DNA of 54,113 bases from Candidatus Bathycorpusculum termitum (GTDB taxonomy: Archaea; Thermoproteota; Bathyarchaeia; Bathyarchaeales; Bathycorpusculaceae). Made by a program: the position numbers and the translations under genes. Under the pieces are notes generated by a model. It ran no database searches. It saw only the letters and a list, made by a program, of their open reading frames with translations, and was not told where the DNA came from. Each line of letters opens with the position of its first letter. The first letter of the stretch is position 1. The stretch lies in assembly GCA_031254875.1 (NCBI GenBank), contig JAIRTW010000050.1, forward strand, positions 1 through 54,113. The letters are read 5' to 3'. Shown here piece after piece: positions 2,609 through 32,122 of this stretch.

Positions 2609-2651
2609 GTACGGTTAACACCTAACGGTGTATGATGTATGGTGTATTAAT

Positions 2652-7274: not shown

Positions 7275-7556
7275 GTGCCCGTGGAGGTTTTGCAATCAAA
7301 AATCAGAACCAATTTTGTGGTGGAGGTGAAATATTTGGTTAGAGGTGAAGGTACAACTGCGCAAGGTTCTGCGAGTCCAACAAAAATTCAGCACAGCCTA
7401 AAAGGTGCACACTACCCATCTAGTAAAAATGATCTAGTCAGGCTTGCAAAAAATAACAGCGCTCCAAGTGATGTCTTAAGCATTTTGGATGTAATTCCTA
7501 ACAAAGAGTACAGTTCTCCAGCGGACCTTATGAAGGAAATCGGAAAAAAAGAGTAG
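7275..7556 (+). CDS. small DUF2795-domain protein
   Basis: The C-terminal half (from about residue 38) matches the DUF2795 pattern: LKGAHYPSSKNDLVRLA, then SDVLSILDVIP and NKEYSSPADLMKEI. This is a small alpha-helical fold of unknown function, found alone or with other domains and sometimes likened to DNA/RNA-binding helical domains. The start codon is uncertain: GTG at 7275 is used here, while GTGs at 7281 and near 7317 would also keep the domain. It stands alone between two divergent or spaced genes. Confidence 0.65.
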   Translation: MPVEVLQSKIRTNFVVEVKYLVRGEGTTAQGSASPTKIQHSLKGAHYPSSKNDLVRLAKNNSAPSDVLSILDVIPNKEYSSPADLMKEIGKKE

Positions 7557-7770
7557 TCTACTATTGTGGCCGTTTTCCATTTTTCCTTGTTTCCCTTTTT
7601 TATTAAAGATGAAAAAGTCGGGCCTATAGGTGGTTGACAGAGATTACCGCTTTCCAAATTGGTTTTTGTGATCGGTTATGCCGTAACCATGCCGGCGGTA
7701 TATACGCATTTCCTTACACATGTAAGGGATTGTGCATTTTTTTTGTCTGGTGTATATTCAAGTTTACATC

Positions 7771-7778
7771 AAATATAA
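7771..7778 (+). promoter_or_regulatory. possible TATA box of the S-layer-like gene
   Basis: AAATATAA lies about 28 bp before a predicted start near 7803, leaving about 50 nt of leader to the ATG at 7854. This is a weak call in AT-rich sequence. Confidence 0.35.
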
Positions 7779-7853
7779 GTATCCCGAAATCCTACCTTTC
7801 AGATGCCTAACAGGCAAGCACTTCTTCTGAAAAATTTGTTAGAAGGTAGAAAA

Positions 7854-10283: not shown

Positions 10284-10286
10284 ACC

Positions 10287-10341
10287 CCTTTTTTCATTTT
10301 TTGTTTGGCTATTTTTTGGTTTTCATTTTTTGTTTGACTAT
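10287..10341 (+). terminator. T-run terminator region with a 22-bp direct repeat
   Basis: Several T-runs follow the S-layer-like gene. A 22-bp unit beginning TTTTCATTTTTTGTTTG occurs twice (10291-10312 and 10320-10341, one mismatch). Oligo-T tracts terminate archaeal RNA polymerase, so this is the likely transcript end. Confidence 0.5.
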
Positions 10342-10570
10342 ATTAGATATTAGTCCAGATTATTATTTTGACGGTTTTATTAGTGTACTATGTAATTTTT
10401 GTGTTTTTATACATCTGTTTTAATCATTTAGTGGCACATATATCAAGTTTAAGAATACAAAAATAATAAGAGCTGCCGTCTATTATCGGCATGCATACAA
10501 CCGTTGGCCACTATGTTGCTTGGGGAAAATTCTAAATGTGAGTTCATACCAAATATGCGGTTGATGATTT

Positions 10571-10972
10571 ATGACTGAAAAAGTAGATCCGATTAAAATT
10601 CACAAAGATGCTAATGCCTTAATGGAAAGCAGCAAATATGCCGAAGCCCGTGACCTCTTTGGCAAAGCGGCTGACCTCTACTACAAAGGCCAGAACTATT
10701 TTGGATCAGCTGAGATGAACTATAAAGCTGGCGAGTGCTCTGCACAACTCAAAGAATATCAAAAAGCAGTAGAATTCTTTACTAAATCCGCCGATATCTC
10801 TTTAGCTAAGGGCTTTGAACGCTATGGCATAAGTGCACTTGAAAATGCCCAAGAGAATCAAAAAACGCTTGGCAACACCAAAGAAGCCGAAGAACTGACC
10901 AAAAAAATCGATGAACTTAACAAAAAACAACAGGAACCCGAAGACGAATCCAGCTTCTCAGTGTTTTCCTAA
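10571..10972 (+). CDS. TPR/SNAP-like helical repeat protein
   Basis: This 133-residue soluble protein is made of helical pairs with the TPR signature: ALMESSKYAEARDLFGKAADLYY, then FGSAEMNYKAGECSAQL, KEYQKAVEFFTKSADIS and a last helix pair up to residue 115. The A/Y/G spacing and the phrase GSAEMNYKAGEC resemble the SNAP subfamily of TPRs. The tail is acidic and low-complexity (EPEDESSFSVFS). It is probably a protein-interaction adaptor in the cytoplasm. It is a single gene with no operon partner, and its role is unknown. Confidence 0.75.
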   Translation: MTEKVDPIKIHKDANALMESSKYAEARDLFGKAADLYYKGQNYFGSAEMNYKAGECSAQLKEYQKAVEFFTKSADISLAKGFERYGISALENAQENQKTLGNTKEAEELTKKIDELNKKQQEPEDESSFSVFS

Positions 10973-11096
10973 CTCTGTTTCCTTTCTTGTTATATTTCTT
11001 TTCAACAATCACACTGACCCGAAAATAGCACACAAAATGTAGCTGAATGGGTAATCGAACAATTCTTAAACATCTCAGTTCACTATTCACATAGAG

Positions 11097-12047
11097 ATGC
11101 CTGATATGGAAACTTGGGATGTTATAATCATAGGCGCCGGTTCAGCAGGTCTATCTGCAGCTATCTATGCAGTACGAAGCGGACTTAAACCACTGGTTTT
11201 AGACGAGAAATTTGCAGGTGGAACAATAGCCAACGCTCCAATAATCGTTAACTATCCCGGGTTCTTAGAAATTAGTGGGTCTGAACTGGCGCAGAAGATG
11301 GCAGATCACGCACGTAAACTTGGTGCAGTTGTTCATGACGTCGAAACCGTAACTGCCCTTAACTTCCAAGGCGAGACTAAAACTGTAATCACCACTGCAA
11401 CCACATACGGTGCTAAAGCCGTCATTATTTCCATGGGTTCCCACTACAAAGAAATCGGTGCAAAAGGCGAAAAAGAATTCCGGGGCCGGGGTGTCAGTTA
11501 TTGCGGCGTTTGTGATGGACCCTTCTTCAAGGGTAAACAGGTTTTGGTGGTCGGTGGAGGAAACTCGGCCTGCATCACAACACTGTACCTCTCAGGTTTA
11601 GTTGCACAGGTTACTGTTGTCCACCGTCGCGGGAGGTTCCGGGCTGAAGAATCGCTTGCAAAAGATGTCGCAAGCAAAATGAACGTTAAAATTCTCTGGA
11701 ACACTGAAATCCAAGAAATCAAAGGTGACAAACAAGTCCGCGCTGTCACCCTGAAAAACAACAAATCGGGGCAGTTCAGTGAAATAGCGGCAGACGCAGT
11801 GTTTATCCAGATCGGTGAAACACCCAACAGCAAACTTGCAGTAGCAAGCGGCGTTGAAATAGACAAACATGGATACATAAAAACCGACATACACCAGCAA
11901 ACAAACCTTGTAGGTGTATTTGCCGCAGGTGACATAACCAATCACCCCATCAAACAGGTTGGTACCGCTGTCGGGCAAGGCATTACAGCGGCACTTGAAG
12001 CATACGCATACATCCGACGCCCATACTACAAAAATGGCGAGTGTTAG
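11097..12047 (+). CDS. trxB: thioredoxin reductase
   Basis: This FAD-dependent enzyme reduces thioredoxin with NAD(P)H. The FAD site GAGSAGLSAAIYA is at the N-terminus, the nucleotide site VVGGGNSA in the middle, and the C-terminal FAD motif GVFAAGDI near the end. The redox pair sits in YCGVCDGPFF, where most family members have CATCDG. At 316 residues it is a normal length. The ATG at 11106 is an alternative start (3 residues shorter). No thioredoxin gene is adjacent. Confidence 0.92.
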   Translation: MPDMETWDVIIIGAGSAGLSAAIYAVRSGLKPLVLDEKFAGGTIANAPIIVNYPGFLEISGSELAQKMADHARKLGAVVHDVETVTALNFQGETKTVITTATTYGAKAVIISMGSHYKEIGAKGEKEFRGRGVSYCGVCDGPFFKGKQVLVVGGGNSACITTLYLSGLVAQVTVVHRRGRFRAEESLAKDVASKMNVKILWNTEIQEIKGDKQVRAVTLKNNKSGQFSEIAADAVFIQIGETPNSKLAVASGVEIDKHGYIKTDIHQQTNLVGVFAAGDITNHPIKQVGTAVGQGITAALEAYAYIRRPYYKNGEC

Positions 12048-15255: not shown

Positions 15256-17070
15256 CTAAAGTATGTCTTGCTTTTTATTCGTGTTTGTGTCGATCAGTTG
15301 ATTTACACTTTTTAAAAATTTCTCTCCTGGTTCCCTATAGTTTCCTCTTTCGTGGATCGCTTGTTTTGCCAAAGAAATCATTTCTTGGATTCGAACGGTT
15401 TCTTCTTCGGTAAGTATATTTTTGTTTCTTTTCTCTATTAATTTAATTGCTCCTTCCAAAAATTTTGGATTAGCAATAAGATCTGTTCGATATTTTACTT
15501 TAAATTTTTTCTGCACACCGTATCTGTGATTATAGTCGGTGCTTAAATACATCTTCATTATTTTTTCCCGGTTTTTGGCAACTTGTTTAATATTCATCAA
15601 ATTGTATATTCCTACGTTTTCATCACCTGAACCGCGTCCCCAAGAACCGCCGGGAAGCGTGAAGGCAGGTGTGAGAAAGTTGCGAAGACCGCCTATTGCA
15701 CCTTGCGTAGCAGGAGTACCCTCTAGGATTCGACAAGTTTTCATCCTGTTTACAAACTTTTTCATTTTTGCTTTCGCTTGTTTAGTAGACGTATTTATGT
15801 ATATTGAAGATGTATGTCCCATACCGCCGCCCTCAATCATTTTGTCAGCTATGTCAAGTGCTTTTCCGAAATTATTTGCTCTATACATGGCAAGCACAGG
15901 CGAAAGTTTTTCACGTGCGAACGGTTCTTTAGAAAAATCTGTGCTCTCTACTTCAGCTATGAGAATTTTCGTGTTTTCTTTGACTTTTATCCCGGACCAT
16001 TCAGCGATTGTTTCAGCTGACCGCCCGACTACATCAGGGTTTAAAAATGCTCCATCTTTTGTCATGAATTCCCTAACTTTTTTTGCTTCATCAGGGGTTA
16101 AAAAATGACATTCTTGTTGTATAAACTCTTCCTTGATTTTATCATACACATTATCTAAAGCTATAACAGATTGTTCAGATGCACAAATCATCCCGTTATC
16201 AAATGTTTTAGACTCAATAATTGAACTGACAGCCGAACGAATAACGCGTGTAGCCGCTTTATCGTCAAGACCGGTGATAACACTGTCATCAATAATAGCT
16301 GGAGTGTTTCCCGGACCCACACCAATAGCAGGTGTACCACTGGTATATGCAGAATCTACCATTGCATTACCTCCTGTTGCGAGTATAAAATCTGAACACC
16401 TCATAAGCGCTTGGGTAAGCTCAACACTTGGATTATCAATCCAGTCCAGAATCTCCTCAGGTGCTCCTGCTTTTACCGCAGCTTCAAGCACTATTTTTAC
16501 TGCTCCAATGGTGGACTCTTTCGCACTTGGATGAGGGCTAAATATCATACCATTACGCGTTTTAAGCGCAAGCAGGGCTTTAAATATCGCTGTAGAGGTT
16601 GGATTAGTTGTAGGGATGACAGCGGCAATAAGGCCTTTAGGTTCTGCTACATATGAGATGCCAAAAGTTTTATTATCCTCTACAATGCCACAAGTTTTTG
16701 CATTTTTATATAAATTATAAATATACTCAGCCGCTAAACGATTCTTTGCCGTTTTGTGCTCTACAACACCCCTCTTGGTGTCTTTAATTGCCCACTCAGC
16801 AAGATAAACGCTCTGCTCAAGTGCAGCAATCGCGGCGGCATGAAAAATCTTGTCCACTTTAGATTGAGAAAATTTGGCATATTTCTTTTGTGCCGTTCTA
16901 ACCCGATCAATCTTCGGTTTTAGCTCCACTTTTGCCGCTTTTAACATCTGGGTAGCTTTTAACATTTTGACTGCTTCTAACGCCTCCTCTGGTTTTAACC
17001 CTAACAAATTTGCTGCTTCTAACATTTTATTATCAATCACAGAGGGTTCTTGTTTTAACATTTTACTCAC
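15256..17070 (-). CDS. CoA-acylating aldehyde dehydrogenase, AdhE N-terminal-domain type, stand-alone
   Basis: Predicted to interconvert acetyl-CoA + NADH with acetaldehyde. The ALDH fold is clear: IPTTNPTSTAIFKALLALKTRN (cofactor/CoA region), GGNAMVDSAY, the catalytic cysteine in DNGMICASEQS (C296), GGMGHTSSIY, and the GSWGRGS...ENVGIYNLMNIK ending seen in the ALDH half of AdhE. It lacks the iron alcohol-dehydrogenase half. Instead it has about 50 extra N-terminal residues rich in MLKA/EAVKML helices and a basic tail of about 90 residues. At 604 residues it is longer than EutE/PduP-type enzymes (about 460). It is transcribed away from the hydrogenase operon and shares an upstream motif with it. 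No alcohol dehydrogenase lies in the window. A GAAGTGAG sequence precedes the ATG. Confidence 0.88.
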   Translation of the reverse strand: MSKMLKQEPSVIDNKMLEAANLLGLKPEEALEAVKMLKATQMLKAAKVELKPKIDRVRTAQKKYAKFSQSKVDKIFHAAAIAALEQSVYLAEWAIKDTKRGVVEHKTAKNRLAAEYIYNLYKNAKTCGIVEDNKTFGISYVAEPKGLIAAVIPTTNPTSTAIFKALLALKTRNGMIFSPHPSAKESTIGAVKIVLEAAVKAGAPEEILDWIDNPSVELTQALMRCSDFILATGGNAMVDSAYTSGTPAIGVGPGNTPAIIDDSVITGLDDKAATRVIRSAVSSIIESKTFDNGMICASEQSVIALDNVYDKIKEEFIQQECHFLTPDEAKKVREFMTKDGAFLNPDVVGRSAETIAEWSGIKVKENTKILIAEVESTDFSKEPFAREKLSPVLAMYRANNFGKALDIADKMIEGGGMGHTSSIYINTSTKQAKAKMKKFVNRMKTCRILEGTPATQGAIGGLRNFLTPAFTLPGGSWGRGSGDENVGIYNLMNIKQVAKNREKIMKMYLSTDYNHRYGVQKKFKVKYRTDLIANPKFLEGAIKLIEKRNKNILTEEETVRIQEMISLAKQAIHERGNYREPGEKFLKSVNQLIDTNTNKKQDIL

Positions 17071-17669: not shown

Positions 17670-18161
17670 TTGACCACAAATGACATACGACGAACACGCC
17701 TTGAAAAAGTTCTAAAAAATCACAACTACCAAGAAAGTGCTCTCTTAGAAATACTCCACAGCGCCCAAGGAATTTACGGATATCTCGACCGAAACTTGCT
17801 CATGGACATTGCAGGATCATTAAACCTGCCACCAAGCCACGTCTATGGCGTAACCACATTTTACAGTTTCTTCAAAATGAGAAAACCAGGACAACACATA
17901 ATCACCGCCTGCCTAGGAACAGCCTGCTATGTAAAAGGTGTAGAACAAATAGTTGTTGCTATAGAAAAAGAGTTTAATCTTAAAAGAGGCGGCTCAACAG
18001 CAGATGGCAAATTGTCGCTTCTATGTACGCGCTGTATTGGAGCATGCGCAATGGCGCCAGTGGTTGTTTTAGATGATCAAGTTATTGGTAAAGCTACTAA
18101 AGAGTTGGTAATTGAGAAAATTAGAAATGTGCTTGAAGGTGTAAAAGATGAATCTGAATGA
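17670..18161 (+). CDS. hoxE: hydrogenase diaphorase subunit, HoxE/NuoE-like
   Basis: This is the [2Fe-2S] thioredoxin-fold subunit of the NAD-linked hydrogenase. An N-terminal helical bundle (LLEILHSAQGIYGYLD) leads to the cluster ligands C81, C86, C122 and C126 in ACLGTACYVKG and TRCIGACAMAPV. Translation starts at a TTG, supported by a GAGGAG ribosome-binding site 9 nt upstream. It is the first gene of a tight five-gene operon and overlaps the next by 14 nt. The 5' part uses C- and A-ending codons, unlike the following genes. The equivalent subunit in bifurcating enzymes is HydC. Confidence 0.9.
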   Translation: MTTNDIRRTRLEKVLKNHNYQESALLEILHSAQGIYGYLDRNLLMDIAGSLNLPPSHVYGVTTFYSFFKMRKPGQHIITACLGTACYVKGVEQIVVAIEKEFNLKRGGSTADGKLSLLCTRCIGACAMAPVVVLDDQVIGKATKELVIEKIRNVLEGVKDESE

Positions 18162-19797
18162 TATACAAAGGGTAGCTGAAGAGGAAAACGAGTTTCAAAG
18201 AGCCTATAAGTATCGTATTAATGTTTGCTGTTCGAGTGGTTGTGTGCCGTTTGGCGCGTTTAAGGTGCTTAAGGCTTTTGAGGATGCTGTAAAAGAGTTT
18301 GGTGTTGAGAATATTTGTAAAGTTGCTAGGACTGGGTGTGTGGGTACCTGTTCTGTTGGTCCTGCAGTGCTTGTTGATCCTGGCGAGTATCTTTATCAAT
18401 CGGTAACGCCTGAGAATGTTCGTGAAATTGTTCAGAGTCACATAGTTTCAGGGGTTCCTGTTAAAAAGTATCTTTATGTTAATGAGAGTTATTTCCGGAA
18501 GCAGCAACGTTTGGTGCTTAGGAATGCTGGTAAAATTGATCCTACGAGAATTCAGGATTATATTTCAACCGGTGGTTATTTTGCTTTAGCGAAATGTCTT
18601 TTGATTATGACTCCGCAGGGTGTAATACAGGAAATTGTTAGCAGTGGTTTGCGTGGTAGAGGTGGCGCTGGTTTTCCTGTTGGGCAGAAGTGGAGTCTTG
18701 TTGCAAGGGCGAGTAATACGCCGAAGTATATTGTTGCTAATCTTGATGAGGGTGATCCAGGGGTTTTTGCGAATCGTACGCTTGCAGAGGCTGATCCTCA
18801 TGCGATTATAGAGGGTATGATTATTGCTGGTTATGCTATTGGTGCGCAGAAGGGTTATGTTTACATCCGCTCTGAGTATCCTTTAGCTATTGAGGCTTTA
18901 CAGAAAGCTATTGCTCAAGCAAAGGAGATTAATTTATTAGGAGATAACATTTTGGGAACGCAGCACAAATTTGATCTCGAGTTGCGTTTTGGTGCGGGCG
19001 CGTTTGTTGCTGGAGAAGAAACAGCCATTTTGATGTCTGTTGAGGGCCGTAGGGCTCAACCGCGTCCTAGGCCGCCGTATCCTGCGAATCAGGGGTTGTG
19101 GAATAATCCTACGTTAATTCAAAATGTTGAATCTTTGGCTAATGCGCCGTTTATCATTTTAAATGGTGGAACGTGGTTCAAAAGTTTTGGTTTGCCTAAT
19201 TGTACGGGTACTAAGTGTTTCTCTTTGACAGGTGAGATTAATAATCCGGGTTTAATCGAGGTGCCTATGGGTATTACTTTGCGTGAGATAATTTATGATA
19301 TAGGCGGTGGAATTCCGAATGGTAAAAAGTTTAAAGCGGTTCTTGTTGGAGGTCCATCTGGTGGGTGTTTGCCTGAGAGTGTTCTTGAGGCACAGATTGA
19401 TTATGACTCGTTAAAGAGTGTGGGCGCCATTATGGGTTCCGGTGGCATAGTGGTGTTAAATGAGGATTCATGCATGGTGGATACTGCACGTTATTTTACA
19501 GATTTTTGTATAGAGGAGTCCTGTGGTAAGTGTACGCCGTGTAGAGCGGGTCTTGCACGTGTTAAAGAGATTTTTGATAAAATTACAACCGGTGAGGGCG
19601 AATTAAATAATATTGATATTTTGGAGGAGGCAAGTGAATACATTATCAATGCTAGTCTATGTGGTTTAGGGCAGACAGCGCCTAATCCTATTCTAACAAC
19701 TCTTAGGTATTTCCGGGAAGAATATCTTGAACATATTGTTAATAAGAAATGTAAAGCAGGGGTTTGTTTTAGACATGAAAACGGTGGGGGGAAGTAA
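18148..19797 (+). CDS. hoxF: hydrogenase NAD/FMN subunit, HoxF/NuoF-like
   Basis: This subunit oxidises or reduces NAD(P)(H). An N-terminal thioredoxin-like domain carries cysteines (CCSSGCVPFGA and CVGTCSVGPAV, typical of a 2Fe-2S site). It is followed by the NuoF core: GLRGRGGAGFPVGQKW, NLDEGDPG, and the FMN/NADH motif GAGAFVAGEETAILMSVEG. A SLBB-type section comes next, then the 4Fe-4S site ESCGKCTPCRAG with the last cysteine in ASLCGLGQTAPNP. At 549 residues it ends soon after CKAGVC. The extra ferredoxin domain that follows in bifurcating HydB proteins is absent, so the Hox type is favoured. Codons are T/G-ending. Confidence 0.92.
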   Translation: MNLNDIQRVAEEENEFQRAYKYRINVCCSSGCVPFGAFKVLKAFEDAVKEFGVENICKVARTGCVGTCSVGPAVLVDPGEYLYQSVTPENVREIVQSHIVSGVPVKKYLYVNESYFRKQQRLVLRNAGKIDPTRIQDYISTGGYFALAKCLLIMTPQGVIQEIVSSGLRGRGGAGFPVGQKWSLVARASNTPKYIVANLDEGDPGVFANRTLAEADPHAIIEGMIIAGYAIGAQKGYVYIRSEYPLAIEALQKAIAQAKEINLLGDNILGTQHKFDLELRFGAGAFVAGEETAILMSVEGRRAQPRPRPPYPANQGLWNNPTLIQNVESLANAPFIILNGGTWFKSFGLPNCTGTKCFSLTGEINNPGLIEVPMGITLREIIYDIGGGIPNGKKFKAVLVGGPSGGCLPESVLEAQIDYDSLKSVGAIMGSGGIVVLNEDSCMVDTARYFTDFCIEESCGKCTPCRAGLARVKEIFDKITTGEGELNNIDILEEASEYIINASLCGLGQTAPNPILTTLRYFREEYLEHIVNKKCKAGVCFRHENGGGK

Positions 19798-19799
19798 GA

Positions 19800-20510
19800 A
19801 TGACCGAAATTTCTGTGGTGTCTTTAAAAATTGACGGTGTTCAGGTTTCCGTTCCCGAGGGTACAACTATATTAAAAGCAGCTAAGGATAATGGCATATT
19901 AATTCCCACTCTCTGCGATTTAGAAGGTTTAACCCCCTATGGCGGCTGTCGTTTGTGTTTAGTGGAAGTTACGGGTTCGCCTAAGCTTTTTACGGCGTGT
20001 ACTACACAGGTGAATCCGGGTATGGAGGTTACTACTAATTCGGTGCGGTTGAAGAATTATCGGAAAATGGCTGTTCAATTACTTATGTCTGAGCGTGTTC
20101 ATATGTGTGCGGTTTGTGTTGCAAATGATCATTGTGAACTACAAGCTTTAGCTAATCAGTTAGGTGTGGACCATGTATCATTTGAGCGGCATTTTACGCG
20201 TGAGACTATTGATTCTTCTCATGATTTTTTGGTTATAGATAGGAATCGTTGCATACTTTGCACTCGTTGTATTCGTGTTTGTGATAAAATTGAAGGTGTT
20301 CACACGTTAGATCTGAAGCAGCGTAGTAAAGACACAGAGGTTATTATGGACTTAGATGAATCATGGGGTGACTCGTGTAGTTGCACGGGTTGTCGTAAAT
20401 GTGCCAAAGTTTGCCCTGTTGGAGCTATATATATTGAAGGCGAATCTGCTACTCAGACTAAGCATCGTGATGTAGCGGAATTTATAACGGAGAGGCGAAA
20501 ACGTAAATGA
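19800..20510 (+). CDS. hoxU: hydrogenase electron-transfer subunit, HoxU/NuoG N-terminal type
   Basis: This is an iron-sulfur relay between the diaphorase and the hydrogenase dimer. It has a plant-type 2Fe-2S domain (LCDLEGLTPYGGCRLCLVEV), then the His-Cys 4Fe-4S motif (HMCAVCVANDHCEL). Two further 4Fe-4S motifs follow (NRCILCTRCIRVCDK and CSCTGCRKCAKVCPVGAI). Its 236 residues equal the usual HoxU length. It starts 2 nt after hoxF and overlaps hoxY by 4 nt. Confidence 0.92.
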   Translation: MTEISVVSLKIDGVQVSVPEGTTILKAAKDNGILIPTLCDLEGLTPYGGCRLCLVEVTGSPKLFTACTTQVNPGMEVTTNSVRLKNYRKMAVQLLMSERVHMCAVCVANDHCELQALANQLGVDHVSFERHFTRETIDSSHDFLVIDRNRCILCTRCIRVCDKIEGVHTLDLKQRSKDTEVIMDLDESWGDSCSCTGCRKCAKVCPVGAIYIEGESATQTKHRDVAEFITERRKRK

Positions 20511-21070
20511 GTATTACCCCAACATCAAATAATAGCGGTAGTAAGGTACGTGTTGCAACTGTGTGGCTAAGTGGCTGTTCGGGTTGTCATATGTCATTTT
20601 TGGATCAGGATGAGCGGATAGTCGATTTAGCTAAGAAAATTCAGGTAGTTTATGGTCCATTAGTGGATGCTAAAGACTTTCCTGAAAATATTGCGGTAAC
20701 TCTTATTGAGGGTTCAGTGGCAAATGTGGAGCAACTAGAATTGTTAAAGGAGATACGAGGTAAAACACATGTGCTTATCTCGTTAGGTGACTGCGCTGTT
20801 ACGGGCAATGTTACAGCGCTGAGAAATTCTTGGGAAAATAGCGACCAAGTAGTACTAGAACGTGCTTACAAGTCACCAGAAAATTTACAGGCTACAGTGC
20901 CAAATATGGTTCCTAAATTGCTTATAAAAACAAAGCCGTTGCATGAAATTGTTAAAATTGACTTCTACATCCCCGGTTGTCCACCGTCAGCAGATTTGAT
21001 AAATTATGTATTAACAGAATTGTTGGCAGGTAAGACACCAAATATGGAGGGCAAAGCAAAATATGGATAA
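20507..21070 (+). CDS. hoxY: [NiFe] hydrogenase small subunit, HoxY-like
   Basis: The short small subunit carries only the proximal 4Fe-4S cluster. Ligands are in WLSGCSGCHMSFLD near the N-terminus, LGDCAVTGN in the middle and PGCPPSADLINYVL near the end. At 187 residues it lacks the C-terminal cluster domain and the Tat signal of membrane uptake enzymes, so it is a cytoplasmic group 3 type. It overlaps hoxH by 8 nt. Confidence 0.92.
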   Translation: MSITPTSNNSGSKVRVATVWLSGCSGCHMSFLDQDERIVDLAKKIQVVYGPLVDAKDFPENIAVTLIEGSVANVEQLELLKEIRGKTHVLISLGDCAVTGNVTALRNSWENSDQVVLERAYKSPENLQATVPNMVPKLLIKTKPLHEIVKIDFYIPGCPPSADLINYVLTELLAGKTPNMEGKAKYG

Positions 21071-22538
21071 CAATAATGAGAATAATAGTAGCAGTAACGA
21101 TAAAGTATTTGAGAAAAAGATTGTAATAAATCCAGTTACGCGAATTGAAGGGCATGCTCAGATAGATATTTTGTTAAATCAAGATAATACTGTGCGTGAG
21201 GCCAAGTTTAAAGTTACGGATTTCCGTGGGTTTGAAAAATTTACCGAAGGACGACCATATTATGAAATGCCGGCTATAACGAGCAGATCCTGCGGTATTT
21301 GTCCGGTGAGTCATATACTTGCCGCTACTAAGGCCTGCGATGGCATCGTAGGGGTAAAACCACCGAAAACCGCTGTTATGTTAAGACGTTTAATGCATAT
21401 GGGCCAAATTATTCAGTCTCATGCGTTAAACTTTTTCCATTTATCCTCGCCAGATTTACTGTTTGGATTTGACTCAGATCCCGCGAAACGTAACGTTTTT
21501 GGTTTAATAGATGCCTATCCAGATTTGGCTGTTCAAGGGGTTAAGCTTCGTCGGTTTGGTCAAGAGATAGTTGAAAAAGTTGCAGGCAGACGAGTTCATT
21601 CAAGTGAATGGGTTCAACCGGGTGGTGTGAGATGGCCTTTGTCGCGTGAACGTGCGGATTATTTGCAGAGTAAATTACCCGAAGCTTTAGAGATTGCAAA
21701 GAATACACTGTCAATGTTTAAGCAGATGCTTAATAGTTTTAATGATGAGGTTGAGAATTTTGGTAATTTTCCCTCATACTATATGGGGTTAGTTAACTCT
21801 GAGGGCGGTTTAGAGCATTACGATGGCAAATTACGCATAATAGATAACGAGGGAAGAATGGTAGCTGAATGTACAGATCCTCTAAAGTATCAAGAATATG
21901 TAGGCGAAGCAGTTGAGCCATACACATTTATGAAGTTCCCATATTTTAAAAAGGCTGGTTATCCAGAAGGTGCATATCGTGTTGGTCCATTAGCACGATT
22001 AAATGTTGCCTCACACTGCGGTACACCTCTTGCTGATGAAGAATTTAGAGAATTTAAAAAACTAGGTAAAAATGGTGGTGTAGTAGAGAGTACATTTCAT
22101 TATCATTATGCAAGATTAATTGAAACACTATTCTGCATTGAAACCACTAAAAAATTATTAGAAGACCCGGAAATTCTCTCAGAACATGTAGTTTCAAGGG
22201 CTATGGTTAACAATTATGAAGGTGTAGGCATAGCAGAAGCGCCAAGGGGAACATTAATTCACCACTACAAAGTAGACAATCAGGGCAGAATCACTTGGAA
22301 TAATATGATTATAGCAACAGAACACAATAACATAGCATACAATAAGGCAATAACACAAGTAGCCAAAAAATACGTAAAAGCTCAACAACTACAAGAAGGC
22401 ATGCTTAACCGTGTCGAAGCAGTCATCCGTGCATTTGACCCCTGCCTAAGTTGTGCAACCCACGCAGTTGGACAAATGGCCTTAATCATTAAACTCTTCG
22501 ACAACAAAGGAACACTGATAGATAGGCAAGTCAGATAA
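21063..22538 (+). CDS. hoxH: [NiFe] hydrogenase large subunit, HoxH-like
   Basis: This is the catalytic subunit with the NiFe(CN)2CO site. The L1 motif RSCGICPVSH supplies C77 and C80, and the L2 motif DPCLSCATHA supplies C461 and C464. The 24 residues after H467 are the expected peptide to be removed by a maturation endopeptidase. At 491 residues it fits group 3d. No hyp maturation gene and no HoxW-like protease lie in the window, so they must be elsewhere. The last 150 bp return to C/A-ending codons. NAD- versus NADP-specificity, and Hox versus bifurcating HydABCSL grouping, need phylogeny. Confidence 0.93.
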   Translation: MDNNNENNSSSNDKVFEKKIVINPVTRIEGHAQIDILLNQDNTVREAKFKVTDFRGFEKFTEGRPYYEMPAITSRSCGICPVSHILAATKACDGIVGVKPPKTAVMLRRLMHMGQIIQSHALNFFHLSSPDLLFGFDSDPAKRNVFGLIDAYPDLAVQGVKLRRFGQEIVEKVAGRRVHSSEWVQPGGVRWPLSRERADYLQSKLPEALEIAKNTLSMFKQMLNSFNDEVENFGNFPSYYMGLVNSEGGLEHYDGKLRIIDNEGRMVAECTDPLKYQEYVGEAVEPYTFMKFPYFKKAGYPEGAYRVGPLARLNVASHCGTPLADEEFREFKKLGKNGGVVESTFHYHYARLIETLFCIETTKKLLEDPEILSEHVVSRAMVNNYEGVGIAEAPRGTLIHHYKVDNQGRITWNNMIIATEHNNIAYNKAITQVAKKYVKAQQLQEGMLNRVEAVIRAFDPCLSCATHAVGQMALIIKLFDNKGTLIDRQVR

Positions 22539-25345: not shown

Positions 25346-25711
25346 GTGGAAACTTTGGGTAGCATCGGACTTAGCGCATTCACTGGATTTCTGATAACAG
25401 TTGTTATAGGTATAATTTTCCCCGGAGCCGGACACATTCTAGGTGCCTTCTTAGGCGGTATAGTAGCCGGATTAATCGCACGAGGTATAATCAGCGGAGC
25501 CATCGCAGGAATCCTATCCGGTATATGTAGTGCCATCATTTTAGTTATTCTCGCTTTTGTTGGCTTTATCCTCTATGCCCCCGCAGACTGGGGATTCACC
25601 GGTGCATTGGTCAGTGGTATCGCTGGAGCGGCATTAAGCATCATAGTTGCCGTGGTCAGCGTCATCGCTTCTGCTATAGGCGGTTTCATCGGCGGACTCA
25701 TAAGCCGATAA
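25346..25711 (+). CDS. DUF5518-like glycine-rich membrane protein, first copy
   Basis: This 121-residue protein has about four hydrophobic helices rich in Gly, Ala and Ile. GxxxG-type packing motifs occur in GAFLGGIVAGLIARG and GGFIGGLIS. The pattern resembles the archaeal DUF5518 family of unknown function. It starts at GTG and is followed 80 bp later by a close paralogue. Confidence 0.7.
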   Translation: METLGSIGLSAFTGFLITVVIGIIFPGAGHILGAFLGGIVAGLIARGIISGAIAGILSGICSAIILVILAFVGFILYAPADWGFTGALVSGIAGAALSIIVAVVSVIASAIGGFIGGLISR

Positions 25712-25791
25712 ATTCCAATGTAGTTGCACAACTACACCAACAAAACCTAAACAGCACCTTCGCTCTGGTATGTTTTGAGAGGTGAATACTT

Positions 25792-26187
25792 TTGGCTAGC
25801 ATATGGTTAGGTGCATTTGCAGGATTTCTGCTAACAACAGTTCTTGGTTTTCTAATTCCAGGACTAGGTACCTTAATAGGTGCTTTTGCAGGCGGTATCG
25901 TTGCAGGTTTAATCGCTCGAGGTGCAGGCCGTGGAGTTATTGCAGGCTTTTTAGCAGGCATATTCGGCGGTATAATCCTTGGAATGTTATCCGTATTTGG
26001 TTTGGCACTCATCGAAGGGCTCACAAGTGGTCCACTTGGTGCATTAGCCGGTGGCTTGGCAGGTTTAGCAGTCGGATTAATTGCCATTCTACTTGCGATC
26101 TTTGCAGGTATAATTTCAGCGATTGGCGGTTTAATCGGCGGCGCCCTCAGGCCACGCCATTACCACCGCGCTTATTCAACTTACTAA
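25792..26187 (+). CDS. DUF5518-like glycine-rich membrane protein, second copy
   Basis: This 131-residue paralogue of the preceding gene has the same helix order and the shared core GAFAGGIVAGLIARG and GGLIGGAL. A basic, aromatic tail RPRHYHRAYSTY is added. It starts at TTG, with a GAGAGGTGA ribosome-binding site 6 nt upstream. Tandem duplication is clear. The function is unknown. Confidence 0.7.
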   Translation: MASIWLGAFAGFLLTTVLGFLIPGLGTLIGAFAGGIVAGLIARGAGRGVIAGFLAGIFGGIILGMLSVFGLALIEGLTSGPLGALAGGLAGLAVGLIAILLAIFAGIISAIGGLIGGALRPRHYHRAYSTY

Positions 26188-26196
26188 AACCCTATT

Positions 26197-26290
26197 TATA
26201 GTGGACTAGTTTAAAACTTGGATTACAAAATCCATAAAATTCCATGTTAAACACATAGCTCTGTTCTAAAACTTAAGCTAGTCCACTATA
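26197..26290. repeat. 94-bp MITE-like element with perfect 13-bp terminal inverted repeats
   Basis: TATAGTGGACTAG at 26197-26209 is the exact reverse complement of CTAGTCCACTATA at 26278-26290. The outer TATA on both sides may be a target duplication, giving a 9-bp terminal repeat GTGGACTAG. No coding capacity is present inside. The arms continue with partial complementarity (TTTAAAACTT versus CTAAAACTTAAG). It sits 10 bp after a stop codon. Confidence 0.6.
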
Positions 26291-26562
26291 TCTGTCGAAG
26301 TTTTCTTATGTGTTGTTTTCTCCGGTAAATGTTTAGCGCAATCTTTTCCTTCGGTTTTCTGCTTAAAACAACCGGCCTCGTTGCCTGTTAATTTTAATGA
26401 CGCTTCTGATTTACGCCTTACAGGAGTCAATAATATTTTTCGTCATGTCGCGAAGGAGTTCCACCAAGAGATCCATTCGGTATCGCTATAGACACTAATT
26501 GGTGGGCGGTGTAGTTAAAGATTTTAAGGATACACCGCTAAATTAGCCCCGAGGAACAATCG

Positions 26563-27786
26563 TTGAAGTACATTGACTTTATCGACTTAATCTACAAGCC
26601 AAAAGCATCAGATTTAATCTGTACCTTCCATGTGGATCCTGAAGGTGTCAGTCTCGAGGAAGCCGCAGGAGGTGTTGCCGCAGAAAGTAGTATCGGCACA
26701 TGGACAGAACTCACCACCGAAAAGCCCTATGTGAAGAAACTAGCCGCTCACGTCTACAGCATCAAAGGTAGCACCATAAAAATCGCCTATCCTGCTGAGC
26801 TCTTCGAAAACGGTTACATGCCAAACATTCTGAGTAGCATCACAGGCAACGTATTTGGGCTCAAATCGCTCAAAAACCTTCGTCTGCTTGACATCGAATT
26901 CCCAAGAACCCTCCTTGGAAGTTTCGAGGGACCACAGTTTGGTGTAGACGGCGTTCGTAAACTCCTCAAAATCCAAAAACGCCCCCTTATCGGTACTATC
27001 ATCAAACCTAAACTGGGTTTAAACCCTGTTGATCACGCCAAGATCGCCTATGAAGCATGGCTGGGTGGTTGCGACATAGTTAAAGATGCCGAAAACCTCA
27101 GTAGCCAAAAATTCAATCCCTTCCCTGACCGTCTCACTAAAACATTAGAAGCCCGTGATAAAGTCCAATCCCAAACAGGTGAGCGTAAAGCTTACCTGAT
27201 CAATATCACTGCTGACACCAAAACCATGCTTAAGCGTGCCAAAACAGTTGAGGCCCAGGGCGGAGAATACGTTATGGTCGATATCTTGACCTGCGGATGG
27301 TCCTCACTACAGACGCTTCGTAGCCAAAAATTCAAACTCGCTATCCATGCCCACCGCGCCGGACACGTTGCCTTCACAAAAAACCCCCTAGACGGTATCT
27401 CCATAAAACCCATCTCAACCATTGCACGTATCATCGGTGTTGACCAGCTTCACGTTGGTACAGTCATCGGTAAAATGTCCGAAACCAAGCAGGAAGTGCT
27501 GGAATATATCAAAGCCTGCACAGGTAAACTCGGTGGACTCAAGTCGATACTACCGGTTGCCAGCGGTGGACTACACCCGCGGCTTGTACCAAAACTGATC
27601 GAAACGTTTGGCAACGATGTGGTGTTGCAGGCAAGCGGCGGTATTCATGGACACCCCGAAGGCACCATGGCAGGTGCAAAGGCAATGCGCCAGGCAATTG
27701 AGGCCACTTTAGAGTTGCGTTCACTAACGGACTACGCTAAAAATCATCGGGAATTGATCCTTGCCCTAAAACAATGGAAGGCATAA
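26563..27786 (+). CDS. rbcL: RuBisCO large chain, type III-like, with altered metal site (KDAE)
   Basis: In archaea type III enzymes fix CO2 on ribulose-1,5-bisphosphate derived from nucleosides. Sequence features retained are E41 (AAESSIGTWT), N96 (TGNVFGL), K148/K150 (IIKPKLGL), the carbamylated lysine K174, H264/R265 (HAHRAGH), loop-6 lysine K304 (GTVIGKM), SGGLHP and SGGIHGHPEG. However, the metal motif KDDE reads K174-D175-A176-E177, so the Mg-ligand aspartate (D203 in spinach numbering) is alanine, codon GCC at 27088-27090. The segment after loop 6 is also about 20 residues shorter than in Methanocaldococcus. At 407 residues it is short. The start is TTG with GAGG 8 nt upstream. No AMP phosphorylase or R15P isomerase lies nearby. 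It could be a slow RuBisCO or a RuBisCO-like protein. Confidence 0.9.
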   Translation: MKYIDFIDLIYKPKASDLICTFHVDPEGVSLEEAAGGVAAESSIGTWTELTTEKPYVKKLAAHVYSIKGSTIKIAYPAELFENGYMPNILSSITGNVFGLKSLKNLRLLDIEFPRTLLGSFEGPQFGVDGVRKLLKIQKRPLIGTIIKPKLGLNPVDHAKIAYEAWLGGCDIVKDAENLSSQKFNPFPDRLTKTLEARDKVQSQTGERKAYLINITADTKTMLKRAKTVEAQGGEYVMVDILTCGWSSLQTLRSQKFKLAIHAHRAGHVAFTKNPLDGISIKPISTIARIIGVDQLHVGTVIGKMSETKQEVLEYIKACTGKLGGLKSILPVASGGLHPRLVPKLIETFGNDVVLQASGGIHGHPEGTMAGAKAMRQAIEATLELRSLTDYAKNHRELILALKQWKA

Positions 27787-28085: not shown

Positions 28086-28814
28086 ATGTCTGTATTTGCA
28101 GCACCAGGAGCATATGACCGTGCAATAACAGTTTTCTCGCCTGATGGCAGGCTTTTCCAAGTCGAATACGCAATGGAACTCGTCAACCGGGGTGCCACAA
28201 TCTTGGGCATCCAAACCTCAGATGGAGTAGTTCTGGGGTCAGAGGAAAACATAGAAATCCTCGAAGAGGCAGGGTATTCATGGAAAATTTTCCGCGTAGA
28301 CGACCATATCGGAGCAGCCATCGTCGGTTTAAGCTCTGACGCACGTGTTCTAATCGACCAAGCACGTATCTACGCGCAGAGCAACAAACTAACCTATGAC
28401 GAACCCATCGACATAGAAGTCGTAACCAAACGTATCTGTGATATCCAGCAGATGTACACCCAGCACGCAGGCGTGCGTCCTTTTGGTGTTTCGTTGATTT
28501 TCGGCGGAGTCGACAAGACCGGTTCACGTGTGTTCGCAACACATCCAAGTGGAACATACCGCGGAGTTAAAGCCACCGCCTTAGGCGCAGGAAGAGACAC
28601 AGTCATAAATATACTGAAAGAAGAATACAAAGAAGACCTAAACTTAGACAGCACCATAAAACTGGCGGTTAAATGCCTTATTAAAGCGCTTGAGGTACGG
28701 CAGTTGCCGCCCAGAATCAAAATTGCAGTCATCCCAGCAACAACAAAGAAAATGGAAATGCTAAACGATAACACAGTGGAAGACTACATCAAAGAGCTGG
28801 GTTCAAGTAAGTGA
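28086..28814 (+). CDS. psmA: 20S proteasome alpha subunit
   Basis: This forms the outer rings of the 20S core particle and the gate for regulatory ATPases. The N-terminal gating segment includes YDRAITVFSPDGRLFQVEYAMELVNRG, the alpha-type signature, followed by the fold core up to HPSGTYRGVKATALGAGRD. At 242 residues it is normal. It is the first gene of an archaeal superoperon (proteasome, SBDS, exosome, L37Ae, Pcc1). The SBDS gene starts 7 nt downstream. Confidence 0.96.
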   Translation: MSVFAAPGAYDRAITVFSPDGRLFQVEYAMELVNRGATILGIQTSDGVVLGSEENIEILEEAGYSWKIFRVDDHIGAAIVGLSSDARVLIDQARIYAQSNKLTYDEPIDIEVVTKRICDIQQMYTQHAGVRPFGVSLIFGGVDKTGSRVFATHPSGTYRGVKATALGAGRDTVINILKEEYKEDLNLDSTIKLAVKCLIKALEVRQLPPRIKIAVIPATTKKMEMLNDNTVEDYIKELGSSK

Positions 28815-28821
28815 CAATGAC

Positions 28822-29508
28822 ATGAGCGAAAAGTTCACCGTTGCACGCTTAACTAGAGAGAACGAACACTTTGAGATCCTAGTCAAACCCAACAAAGCAC
28901 TAGAATACCGCAACGGTAAAATCTCCGCAATAACGGAGGTTTTAGCCGCTGAAACAGTTTTCAGCGACGCGAACAAGGGTACTAAAGTCTCCGAAGATGC
29001 TATGAACAAAGCGTTCAAAACGGTGGATCCGCTCAAAATTGCAGATGAAATTCTAAAAAAAGGAACCCTCCAGCTTACAACCGACCAAAGAAGAAAGATG
29101 GTCGAGGATAAGCGTAGGCAAGTAATTGACTTCATTTCCCGACAGGCAGTTGACCCAAAAACCAATCTACCCCATCCGCCCCTGCGCATCGAAAATGCTA
29201 TGGAGCAAATCCGTTATCCTATTGACCCATACAAATCCATTGAAGAGCAGGCTAAAGACATCGTAAGGCTTCTTCGTCCGATTCTGCCGCTAAAAGTCGA
29301 GCAGATCAAAGTTGCCATTAAGATTCCCACACAATACGCCGCTAGAGCATACGGGACCGTCAAAACATTGGGCACTATAAAACATGAAGAATGGCGCGGC
29401 GACGGTTCATGGTATGGCGAGATAGAATTGCCTGCAGGTTCATACGCTTCGCTTCTAACCAAAGTAGGCGACGCGACCAAGGGAAGTGGAGAAGCAAAAA
29501 TAATCTAA
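28822..29508 (+). CDS. SBDS family ribosome maturation protein
   Basis: This is the archaeal Sdo1/SBDS protein, which in eukaryotes releases eIF6 from the 60S subunit. It has the FYSH domain (KFTVARLTRENEHFEILVKPNKALEYRNGK), the helical middle domain (TDQRRKMVEDKRRQVIDFISRQAVDP) and the ferredoxin-like C-terminal domain. At 228 residues it is typical, and its place between psmA and rrp4 is conserved in archaea. Confidence 0.95.
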   Translation: MSEKFTVARLTRENEHFEILVKPNKALEYRNGKISAITEVLAAETVFSDANKGTKVSEDAMNKAFKTVDPLKIADEILKKGTLQLTTDQRRKMVEDKRRQVIDFISRQAVDPKTNLPHPPLRIENAMEQIRYPIDPYKSIEEQAKDIVRLLRPILPLKVEQIKVAIKIPTQYAARAYGTVKTLGTIKHEEWRGDGSWYGEIELPAGSYASLLTKVGDATKGSGEAKII

Positions 29509-29536
29509 ATAATAAATATGAAGAAAAGGTGATTTT

Positions 29537-30250
29537 ATGCCAACATTCTTTGAAAAAAAACAACTCGTAACACCTGGAGAATTACTCGCTGAAGGCGACT
29601 ATTTACCTGGTGAAAATTCGTATGTAGAAAACGGTAAAATTTACGCCTCAAGGATTGGACTCGTGGACAGCGACAACAAAAAGGTCAACGTGGTTGCACT
29701 TAGAGCTTTTTATATGCCTAAAACGGGTGACATCATCATCGGCACAGTCGTCGAAGTAGGTTTCAACGGCTGGACCGTAAATATTCAAGCGCCCTACACA
29801 GCACTCTTGCGTGCCTCAGACGTATTGAGTAGACCCTTTAAACCTCAAAACGACGAATTATCCGCAGTTCTCAATGCAGGTGACTTAATCGTTGCCAAAA
29901 TCGCATCCTACGACCGTGCACATGACCCTCAGCTCACAGTTGCTGAACCTGGATTGGGGAAAATTACACGCGGCCAAATCCTCCAGGTGACTCCAACAAA
30001 GATTCCTCGTATCATCGGCCGTAAAGGTTCCATGATATCTATGATTAAGCAGGAAACCAACTGCCAAATCATCCTCGGTCTCAACGGCGTAATTCTAGTC
30101 ACCGGCAAAACCCCTGAAAATGAAGAGGTCGCCATAATGGCTATCCGTAAAATCGAAGAGGAATCTCACACCAGCGGTTTAACCGATCGCATCACACAGT
30201 TATTAAAAGAACAAAAACAACCAGTTAACTTGGAGGAAACACAACAATGA
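29537..30250 (+). CDS. rrp4: exosome cap protein Rrp4
   Basis: This RNA-binding cap subunit feeds substrate RNA to the exosome ring. It has an N-terminal domain ([19 protein letters not shown]), an S1 domain ([22 protein letters not shown]) and a KH domain with [16 protein letters not shown]. At 237 residues it is usual. It overlaps rrp41 by 4 nt. Confidence 0.95.
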
Positions 30251-30981
30251 ATGAAAAATCCGATAAATTAATCGACAAAAAAGGCATCCGTGGAGATGGA
30301 AGAAAAGCGGATGAGCTTCGCTCAGTTAAACTTCAAGTCGGCGTACTTCCAAACGCAGACGGTTCAGCATACATTGAACACGGCAAAAACAAAATTTTAG
30401 CCGCTGCATTCGGTCCAAGAGAAATGCATCCCAAACATCTAGCACAAGCAGATCGAATGGTTCTAAGATGCCGCTACCATATGGCGCCCTTTAGCGTACC
30501 GGAACGCAAATCTCCTGCACCTTCACGCCGTGAAGTCGAGTTATCTAAAGTCATAAAAGAATCTCTTGAACCCGCACTGTTTTTGGAACTCTATCCACGA
30601 ACAGGTGTGGATGTCTTTATTGAGGTTCTGCAGGCAGACGGCGGAACTCGATGTGCAAGTATCACTGCTGCTGCTCTAGCAATCGCTGATGCGGGCGTCC
30701 CCATGAAGGACCTTGTTGTTGCATGTGCCGCAGGTAAAATTGACGACACAGTTGTTCTTGACCTCTATGATGCAGAAGACAAATTGGGCTCCGCGGATGT
30801 TCCAGTTGCATACATGCCCAATCTAAACGCTGTTACATTGCTTCAGATGGACGGTATTTTGTCGCCTGATGAATTCGAGAAAGCAGTTAACATGGCCATG
30901 GAAGGATGCAAAAAAATCTACGAGATTCAGAAAGAAGCATTAAAAACAAAATACATGGTTGTTAAAGAGGTTGAGGAATAA
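30247..30981 (+). CDS. rrp41: exosome catalytic subunit Rrp41
   Basis: This phosphorolytic 3'-5' RNase subunit has the RNase PH fold. Motifs are [11 protein letters not shown], the ring-contact block [11 protein letters not shown], the phosphate/RNA region [27 protein letters not shown], and the catalytic acid region [20 protein letters not shown]. At 244 residues, it overlaps rrp42 by one base. Confidence 0.96.
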
Positions 30982-31772
30982 TGTCTTCACTTGTAACTAA
31001 AGTTAAACTAAAACAAATAGAACAACTGGTCGAAAAAGGCAGACGTCTTGACGACCGCGGATTAACCGAAACCAGAGAAATCAAGATTGAACAGGGTATA
31101 ATTGAAAAAGCCGAAGGTTCAGCCCGTGTTTTTCTGGGCAAAACCGAGGTTCTTGTCGGCGTTAAAGTCGAAACTGGCGAACCATTCCCAGACACCCCAA
31201 ACGATGGTGTCATGACCGTCAACGCAGAACTTGTGCCGCTTGCACATCCTGACTTTGAGCCCGGACCACCTGATGAAAACAGCATTGAACTCGCCCGTGT
31301 CGTTGACCGCGGTATAAGAGAATCTCGCGCTATCAATACGGAAAAACTCTGCATTGAACCAGGTAAGAAAGTCTTTGTCGTATTCGTTGATATCTATGTT
31401 CTAAACCATGACGGCAACCTCATTGATGCATCCGCGATCGCAGCTATGGCTGCACTGATGAACACCAAGATACCAAACTATGAAATTAAAGATGGTGAAC
31501 TCAAAATCAAACAGGGTTACACCCCATTGCCAATGAAAAGCCACCCCGTTACAGTCACCATAGGCAAAATCAATAACAAACTCATCGTTGACCCTGAACA
31601 GGAAGAAGAATCCGTTATGGACTCGCGCATAACCTTTGCCATTAACGAAGATGGTAACATCTGTGCCATCCAGAAAGGTGGCTCAAGCTTTTTTACACCG
31701 CAACAGATTTTAGAAGCATCAAAGATTGCTCTGGATAAAGCCACAGAACTGCGTAAAAAACTTAACTGGTGA
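30981..31772 (+). CDS. rrp42: exosome subunit Rrp42
   Basis: This RNase PH-fold partner alternates with Rrp41 in the hexameric ring and lacks activity by itself. It shows GRRLDDRGLTETREI, then LGKTEVLVGVKVETGEPF, ELARVVDRGIRESRAI and IYVLNHDGNLIDASAIAAMAAL. At 263 residues, it overlaps the L37Ae gene by 4 nt. Confidence 0.96.
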   Translation: MSSLVTKVKLKQIEQLVEKGRRLDDRGLTETREIKIEQGIIEKAEGSARVFLGKTEVLVGVKVETGEPFPDTPNDGVMTVNAELVPLAHPDFEPGPPDENSIELARVVDRGIRESRAINTEKLCIEPGKKVFVVFVDIYVLNHDGNLIDASAIAAMAALMNTKIPNYEIKDGELKIKQGYTPLPMKSHPVTVTIGKINNKLIVDPEQEEESVMDSRITFAINEDGNICAIQKGGSSFFTPQQILEASKIALDKATELRKKLNW

Positions 31773-32122
31773 AAAAGTTGCCTAAGACAAAGAAAGTAGG
31801 TCCAACCCGAGGTTTAGGTCCTCGTTACGGCTCCACCGTTCGAAAACGATACGTTAAAGTAATAAAAGATCTCAAGAAACCCCACAGATGCCCCCAATGT
31901 GGCTTTGTCCGCGTTAAACGCGTAAGCGTCGGCGTCTGGCGATGCCGCAAATGCGAGTTCACCTTCGCAGGAGGAGCATACATGCCTAACACGAAACTCG
32001 GAGCAATTGCAAGGCGTGCAGCAAAAGGCGTACACGTTGAAGCCGTCCACAAAGAGGTTGCCGTTGTCGAAACTGAATCAGTCGAGCCGGCAATCGAAGA
32101 AGAAACAGAAATCGCCGAGTAA
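31769..32122 (+). CDS. rpl37ae: ribosomal protein L37Ae (eL43)
   Basis: This zinc-ribbon protein of the large subunit has the site CPQCGFVRVKRVSVGVWRCRKC, preceded by GPTRGLGPRYGSTVRKRY and followed by FAGGAYMPNT. The core is about 90 residues, and a 25-residue acidic Val/Glu-rich tail is added. It starts at GTG within the rrp42 stop. In many archaea rpoP follows, but no rpoP frame fits between this gene and pcc1. Confidence 0.94.
   Translation: MKKLPKTKKVGPTRGLGPRYGSTVRKRYVKVIKDLKKPHRCPQCGFVRVKRVSVGVWRCRKCEFTFAGGAYMPNTKLGAIARRAAKGVHVEAVHKEVAVVETESVEPAIEEETEIAE

Follow-up and report, generated by a model that had tools for sequence, protein, structure and literature searches.

In Thermococcus, AMP phosphorylase yields ribose-1,5-bisphosphate (R15P), which is converted to RuBP by R15P isomerase. 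The archaeal form III RuBisCOs of the AMP/NMP pathway are represented here by 2cwx and 1geh, which we take to be the enzymes of P. horikoshii and T. kodakarensis, respectively. For Bathyarchaeia, the available text of PMC8407382 describes form III RuBisCO together with AMP phosphorylase and without phosphoribulokinase. Rubisco without an NMP phosphorylase is one of three variants among haloarchaea and has been proposed to work (PMC9700705, available text). Within the active site, Mg is coordinated by D203 and E204, and the carbamate is located on K201 (PMC8920986, available text). The superfamily also comprises form IV RuBisCO-like proteins such as the enolase MtnW and OiaX, the active sites of which are altered.

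The window, i.e., the whole stretch of 54,113 bp analysed from the genome of Candidatus Bathycorpusculum termitum (G000), displays an archaeal gene content including proteasome alpha and an archaeal LonB. At 26563..27786 on the forward strand it harbours a gene for a form III RuBisCO large subunit of 407 aa, which starts with TTG, retains an open frame over its entire length, as the preliminary description had stated, and has the metal-ligand Asp replaced. The encoded protein shares with the archaeal form III enzymes of the AMP/NMP pathway (2cwx, 1geh) a full-length match, the catalytic lysines and both Pfam domains (RuBisCO N-terminal and catalytic), and passes the TIGR03326 (rubisco_III) model with 534.3 bits against a cut-off of 497.45; it differs from them in Ala for the Mg-ligand Asp and Ser for the phosphate-site Gly. 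An altered active site and the superfamily are shared with the form IV proteins, but both RuBisCO-like models scored on the window protein stayed far below their cut-offs (TIGR03332 MtnW, 214 of 514 bits; OiaX, 211 of 700 bits). In a tree of 30 RuBisCO sequences, which is confined to relatives from the same order and leaves out forms I, II and IV, the protein clusters with those of G004, G014 and G028 (100 % support), all of which possess KDDE at the metal site. Three of the relatives are 85 % identical to it. The nearest solved enzyme, 2cwx, aligns without gaps to residues 306-403 and the lengths of 29 relatives range from 406 to 411 aa, so the segment following loop 6 is not some 20 residues short, as had been suggested; 6hun has additional residues in this segment. 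A promoter-like leader, tagttaaagattttaagg (26512..26529, forward strand), is kept in the window and is identical in eight of the nine leaders compared, that of G004 having one mismatch. Non-ATG starts are conserved in the RuBisCO gene; with the starts assigned by aligning all sequences to that of the window at 26563, 28 of 30 begin with TTG and the other two with GTG. Elsewhere in the window, a cluster of four genes at 18148-22538 encodes NuoF-like, NuoG/ferredoxin-like, 20-kDa-subunit-like and nickel-hydrogenase-like proteins, a 997-aa and perhaps surface-exposed protein with InlB-like and Listeria-Bacteroides repeats is encoded at 2628-5621, and a 604-aa protein (15256-17070, reverse strand) resembles aldehyde dehydrogenase only weakly, with 44 bits across its first half.

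Codons 174-177 of the RuBisCO gene (AAA GAT GCC GAA, 27082-27093) read K-D-A-E, in agreement with the preliminary description, and the alignment to KDDE of 2cwx and 6hun is gapless, placing Ala in the spinach D203 column as proposed. As Mg is bound by D203 together with E204, the substitution hits a metal ligand; the position of the carbamylated Lys and the Glu are present, the Asp is Ala, and the metal-ligand set is incomplete. Codon 176 (GCC, 27088..27090, forward strand) corresponds to GAC or GAT in each of the 29 fetched relatives and to GAC in the close relatives G014 and G028, and a single A-to-C change at 27089 is enough where at least two substitutions had been assumed. The motifs with K175, K177, K201, E204, H294, R295 and K334 (presumed spinach numbering) are preserved. 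The earlier view that all other catalytic residues are kept did not hold at codon 358 (AGC, 27634..27636, forward strand), which encodes Ser where the 29 fetched relatives uniformly have Gly (QAGGG); this position presumably equals spinach G403, a phosphate-binding glycine. D193 of the R. rubrum enzyme is taken here as the residue equivalent to spinach D203. Because substitutions at this equivalent residue are dead in R. rubrum and the phosphate glycine is altered as well, the window protein is predicted, also with reference to the solved enzymes, to be unable to carboxylate RuBP. The deep mutational scan of the R. rubrum enzyme has every D193 mutation in its catalytically dead reference set (PMC11839469, available text).

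RuBisCO was searched for in 61 genomes and matched in 33, of which the best 30, the window's own among them, were fetched; the three left out were G034 (a fragment ending short of the site) as well as G039 and G044 (distant, 34-35 % identity). According to the preliminary description, KDDE in the homologues of all close relatives would point to a sequencing error or private decay, and KDDE is indeed what all 29 other fetched RuBisCOs carry (28 distinct sequences, those of G048 and G057 being the same), among them the three with 85 % identity. Within the genus, 20 of 32 species possess RuBisCO, and KDAE occurs among these in G000 only. A species-level genome collection, which may omit the window's genome or its near kin, was scanned for the exact DNA motif GG-x-D-[FLIMV]-x-KDAE-[NSTI] (codon before Lys, NYN) and yielded five matches, none of them in a RuBisCO frame as judged by translation; the positive control gave one match in the window and zero in 100 shuffles. 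Literature searched for a RuBisCO with Ala at the D203 site revealed none in titles or abstract openings. With KDDE in the 29 relatives and motif matches that are not RuBisCOs, a KDAE clade of RuBisCOs was not found in the searched set, and nothing points to a new RuBisCO class. Of the two possibilities first raised for the protein, the changed metal site stands, and the unrecognised RuBisCO-like group is disfavoured by the TIGR03326 score and by the lack of any KDAE group in the searched set. In the RuBisCO of G014 (L004), Arg replaces the otherwise invariant His of QLHVGT (H297R, presumably spinach H327); the AMP phosphorylase of this genome is a single open frame.

As in other archaeal AMP/NMP-pathway systems, AMP phosphorylase is the genomic partner of RuBisCO in most relatives from the genus. 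TIGR03327 exceeded its cut-off in 17 of 20 RuBisCO-positive and in 0 of 12 RuBisCO-negative genus genomes, and the gene lies divergently at a distance of about 90 bp from RuBisCO in 16 of these 17 genomes (about 2 kb off in G025). The three exceptions without a full AMP phosphorylase, G000, G004 and G028, all belong to the window's clade. In G028 the gene is split over two frames (a real break or an assembly fault), and in G004 it is gone, with a stretch of about 260 bp still similar to its 3' end. Unlike the archaeal AMP/NMP-pathway systems, no AMP phosphorylase was found in the assembly of the window's genome (93 % complete), the best TIGR03327 match reaching 44 bits against the 535-bit cut-off. 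At the former place of the gene, the far side of which is marked by two DUF5518 genes (25346..26187, forward strand), the conserved flanks are separated by about 360 bp. A relic of the 3' end of AMP phosphorylase is located here (113 bp, 26300..26412, reverse strand), which agrees with the 3' part of AMP phosphorylase from G028 in 82 of 116 columns (E 1e-9 in a small search), is syntenic in position and has its frame disrupted by gaps. AMP phosphorylase was thus deleted in the window's lineage. The relic is adjoined by a MITE-like element (26197..26290, no strand assigned; 94 bp, terminal inverted repeats of 18 nt). Including this one, the genome contains five copies, of which the others are 98, 97, 90 and 79 % identical to it, and G023 has a match of 57 bp. 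The downstream block (28086..32122, forward strand) starts with proteasome alpha (psmA), the one gene of the block assigned on the basis of Pfam, and presumably also contains SBDS and exosome genes. In G004 (L036, reversed), the place of AMP phosphorylase (about 7400-8900) is taken by an ORF of about 320 codons that is unrelated to it. RuBisCO and the psmA block of G004 are some 1.9 kb apart (about 10100-12000), and about 670 bp of this interval are similar to the repeat protein encoded at 2.7-3.8 kb in the window.

Both genes are absent from G023, which is probably a sister species of the window's that has lost the two of them. G023 and G000 are sisters in the LonB tree (99 %) and in a tree of eight concatenated proteins other than RuBisCO (100 %); single-gene support for this pair is 52 % for psmA and 76-95 % for five other small genes, the rrp41 tree places G023 elsewhere (67 %), and the tree of the R15P isomerase-like protein places it with G004, G014 and G028 (80 %). 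The G023 genome is collinear with the window over 22.9-42.7 kb, except that position 26156 (DUF5518) is joined to 27957 with about 450 bp between, followed by the psmA block. Neither blastn nor tblastn detected a remnant of RuBisCO or AMP phosphorylase at this junction, and the genome as a whole has no RuBisCO match and AMP phosphorylase matches of at most 46 bits, far below the cut-off.

A route of RuBP supply in the window's genome is doubtful, because AMP phosphorylase was not found and phosphoribulokinase (PF00485) was detected in none of the 32 genus genomes at E 0.001 (control positive in 11 of 14). An R15P isomerase-like gene of G000 scores 289.6 bits against a cut-off of 314.1 that only five of 61 genomes pass; a gene of this type is also found in RuBisCO-less relatives and is not diagnostic. 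That this gene is decaying too is unsupported, given two private changes in G000. RuBisCO may stay in use after its partner is lost, since a working Rubisco in the absence of NMP phosphorylase has been proposed for halophiles, and sources of R15P other than AMP phosphorylase are possible. The window resembles this haloarchaeal variant in that RuBisCO is present and the phosphorylase absent, but the haloarchaeal proposal, in the available text, concerns a working enzyme with another R15P source, whereas in the window the active site itself is altered (PMC9700705).

The damage to the window RuBisCO extends beyond the metal site. It is changed at 10 columns that do not vary among the other 29 sequences (N85Y, T155P, D176A, A201V, H277D, M281I, V302I, N315Y, G358S and V379I), against 0-4 such private changes in every other sequence (n=30). 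Within the set of 20 genus sequences only, the window has 13 private changes and the fast-evolving G025 has 12. Simulation on the fitted 30-sequence tree (500 replicates under each of two models) gave means of 2.27 (maximum 7) and 1.67 (maximum 6) for the window branch; the resulting P values are approximate, as simulated alignments had 86 and 123 invariant columns on average against 151 observed, and the next lowest after that of the window was 0.034 (G022, uncorrected). The control genes of G000 are inconspicuous, with four private changes in LonB (P 0.21), two in the R15P isomerase-like gene and changes in five of 1001 columns of the psmA block, which served as sequence-quality control (5-33 in eight other genomes). 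Poor sequence quality is unlikely, as these controls show no excess of private changes. A rough Fisher comparison, in which branch lengths are taken as change counts, gave p about 1e-6 for RuBisCO and 0.07 for LonB. Protein branch lengths were also summed from the node that G000 and G004 have in common. G000 lies nearer to this node than G004 does in LonB (0.065 vs 0.105) and in the concatenation (0.058 vs 0.074), but farther from it in RuBisCO (0.127 vs 0.102).

Whole-branch neutrality of the window RuBisCO is rejected, omega = 1 being excluded with p 3.7e-5 in a branch codon model covering 9 of the 30 sequences; in the same model, dN/dS on the G000 branch is 0.076 vs a background of 0.059, which is not a significant rise (p 0.44). 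What sets the gene apart is the excess at particular sites. RuBisCO omega lies under background in G018 (p 0.008) and G011 (p 0.018), and omega of the LonB control is raised on G000 (0.104 vs 0.053, p 0.03). These results are reasonably read as purifying selection that acted along the greater part of the branch and relaxed late, or only partially. As whole-branch purifying selection and the open frame remain, any decay would be recent or partial. With 0.047 nonsense per missense change in the neutral spectrum, the about 12 excess missense changes estimated from the two omegas correspond to about 0.6 expected stops, to which indels would add, and since so few stops are expected the open frame is indecisive.

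Private decay is indicated by two features, the loss of the neighbouring AMP phosphorylase gene by deletion and the surplus of changes at sites that are invariant elsewhere. The gene is, with good confidence, regarded as a form III RuBisCO from the AMP/NMP degradation route that has begun to decay, stranded without its partner gene. In this genus, RuBisCO usually stands head-to-head with AMP phosphorylase; the latter was deleted in the window's lineage, which would have been the first step. RuBisCO, partly freed from constraint, would then have gathered changes at otherwise fixed sites, among them D203A, removing a Mg ligand, and G403S at the phosphate site; order and cause of these steps are what we infer. 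The end point may be seen in the probable sister G023 with both genes gone. Simple decay is countered by G004, which is without AMP phosphorylase yet has KDDE, and KDAE is known from one assembly.

Exaptation, i.e., retention of the protein as a non-carboxylating RuBisCO-like protein with a binding or structural role or with metal-independent sugar-phosphate chemistry, is unlikely; D203A, G403S and the other private changes would in that case belong to the new role. It would agree with the open 407-aa frame, the retained promoter-like leader, the low branch dN/dS and an excess of private changes confined to RuBisCO. The frame is weak evidence, however, in view of the 0.6 expected stops, and the changes are restricted to one species, with no clade sharing them among the fetched relatives; moreover, a Pfam scan of the surroundings revealed no new partner gene beside RuBisCO, and the gene was lost outright in G023. 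An error in base calling or assembly at 27089 of an otherwise working RuBisCO is rather improbable: a lone A-to-C difference in a single draft assembly (123 contigs) would fit, but nine further private changes at invariant columns of the same gene, controls without such an excess and the loss of the partner gene as an independent sign at the locus do not. An active RuBisCO with a changed metal site, in which water or another residue takes the place of the Asp ligand, is highly improbable despite the intact motifs of K175, K177, K201, E204, H294, R295 and K334, as KDAE is private to one genome, the phosphate-site glycine is also altered, the partner gene is deleted, and loss of this ligand is among the variants that the R. 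rubrum scan cited above uses as its dead reference.

Early decay as the preferred reading guards against claiming a new RuBisCO class from a single private substitution, and warns against counting the genome of the window as RuBisCO-capable on an annotation threshold alone. Should exaptation be true instead, the locus would capture a form III enzyme turning into a RuBisCO-like protein, with the pathway less far lost in some relatives and further lost in others. The window and its relatives form a natural series, from the intact pair via a frame-broken partner (G028), a deleted partner with KDDE (G004) and a deleted partner with damaged RuBisCO (G000) to the deletion of both genes (G023), which is useful for understanding how archaea shed the route from nucleotides to 3-phosphoglycerate.
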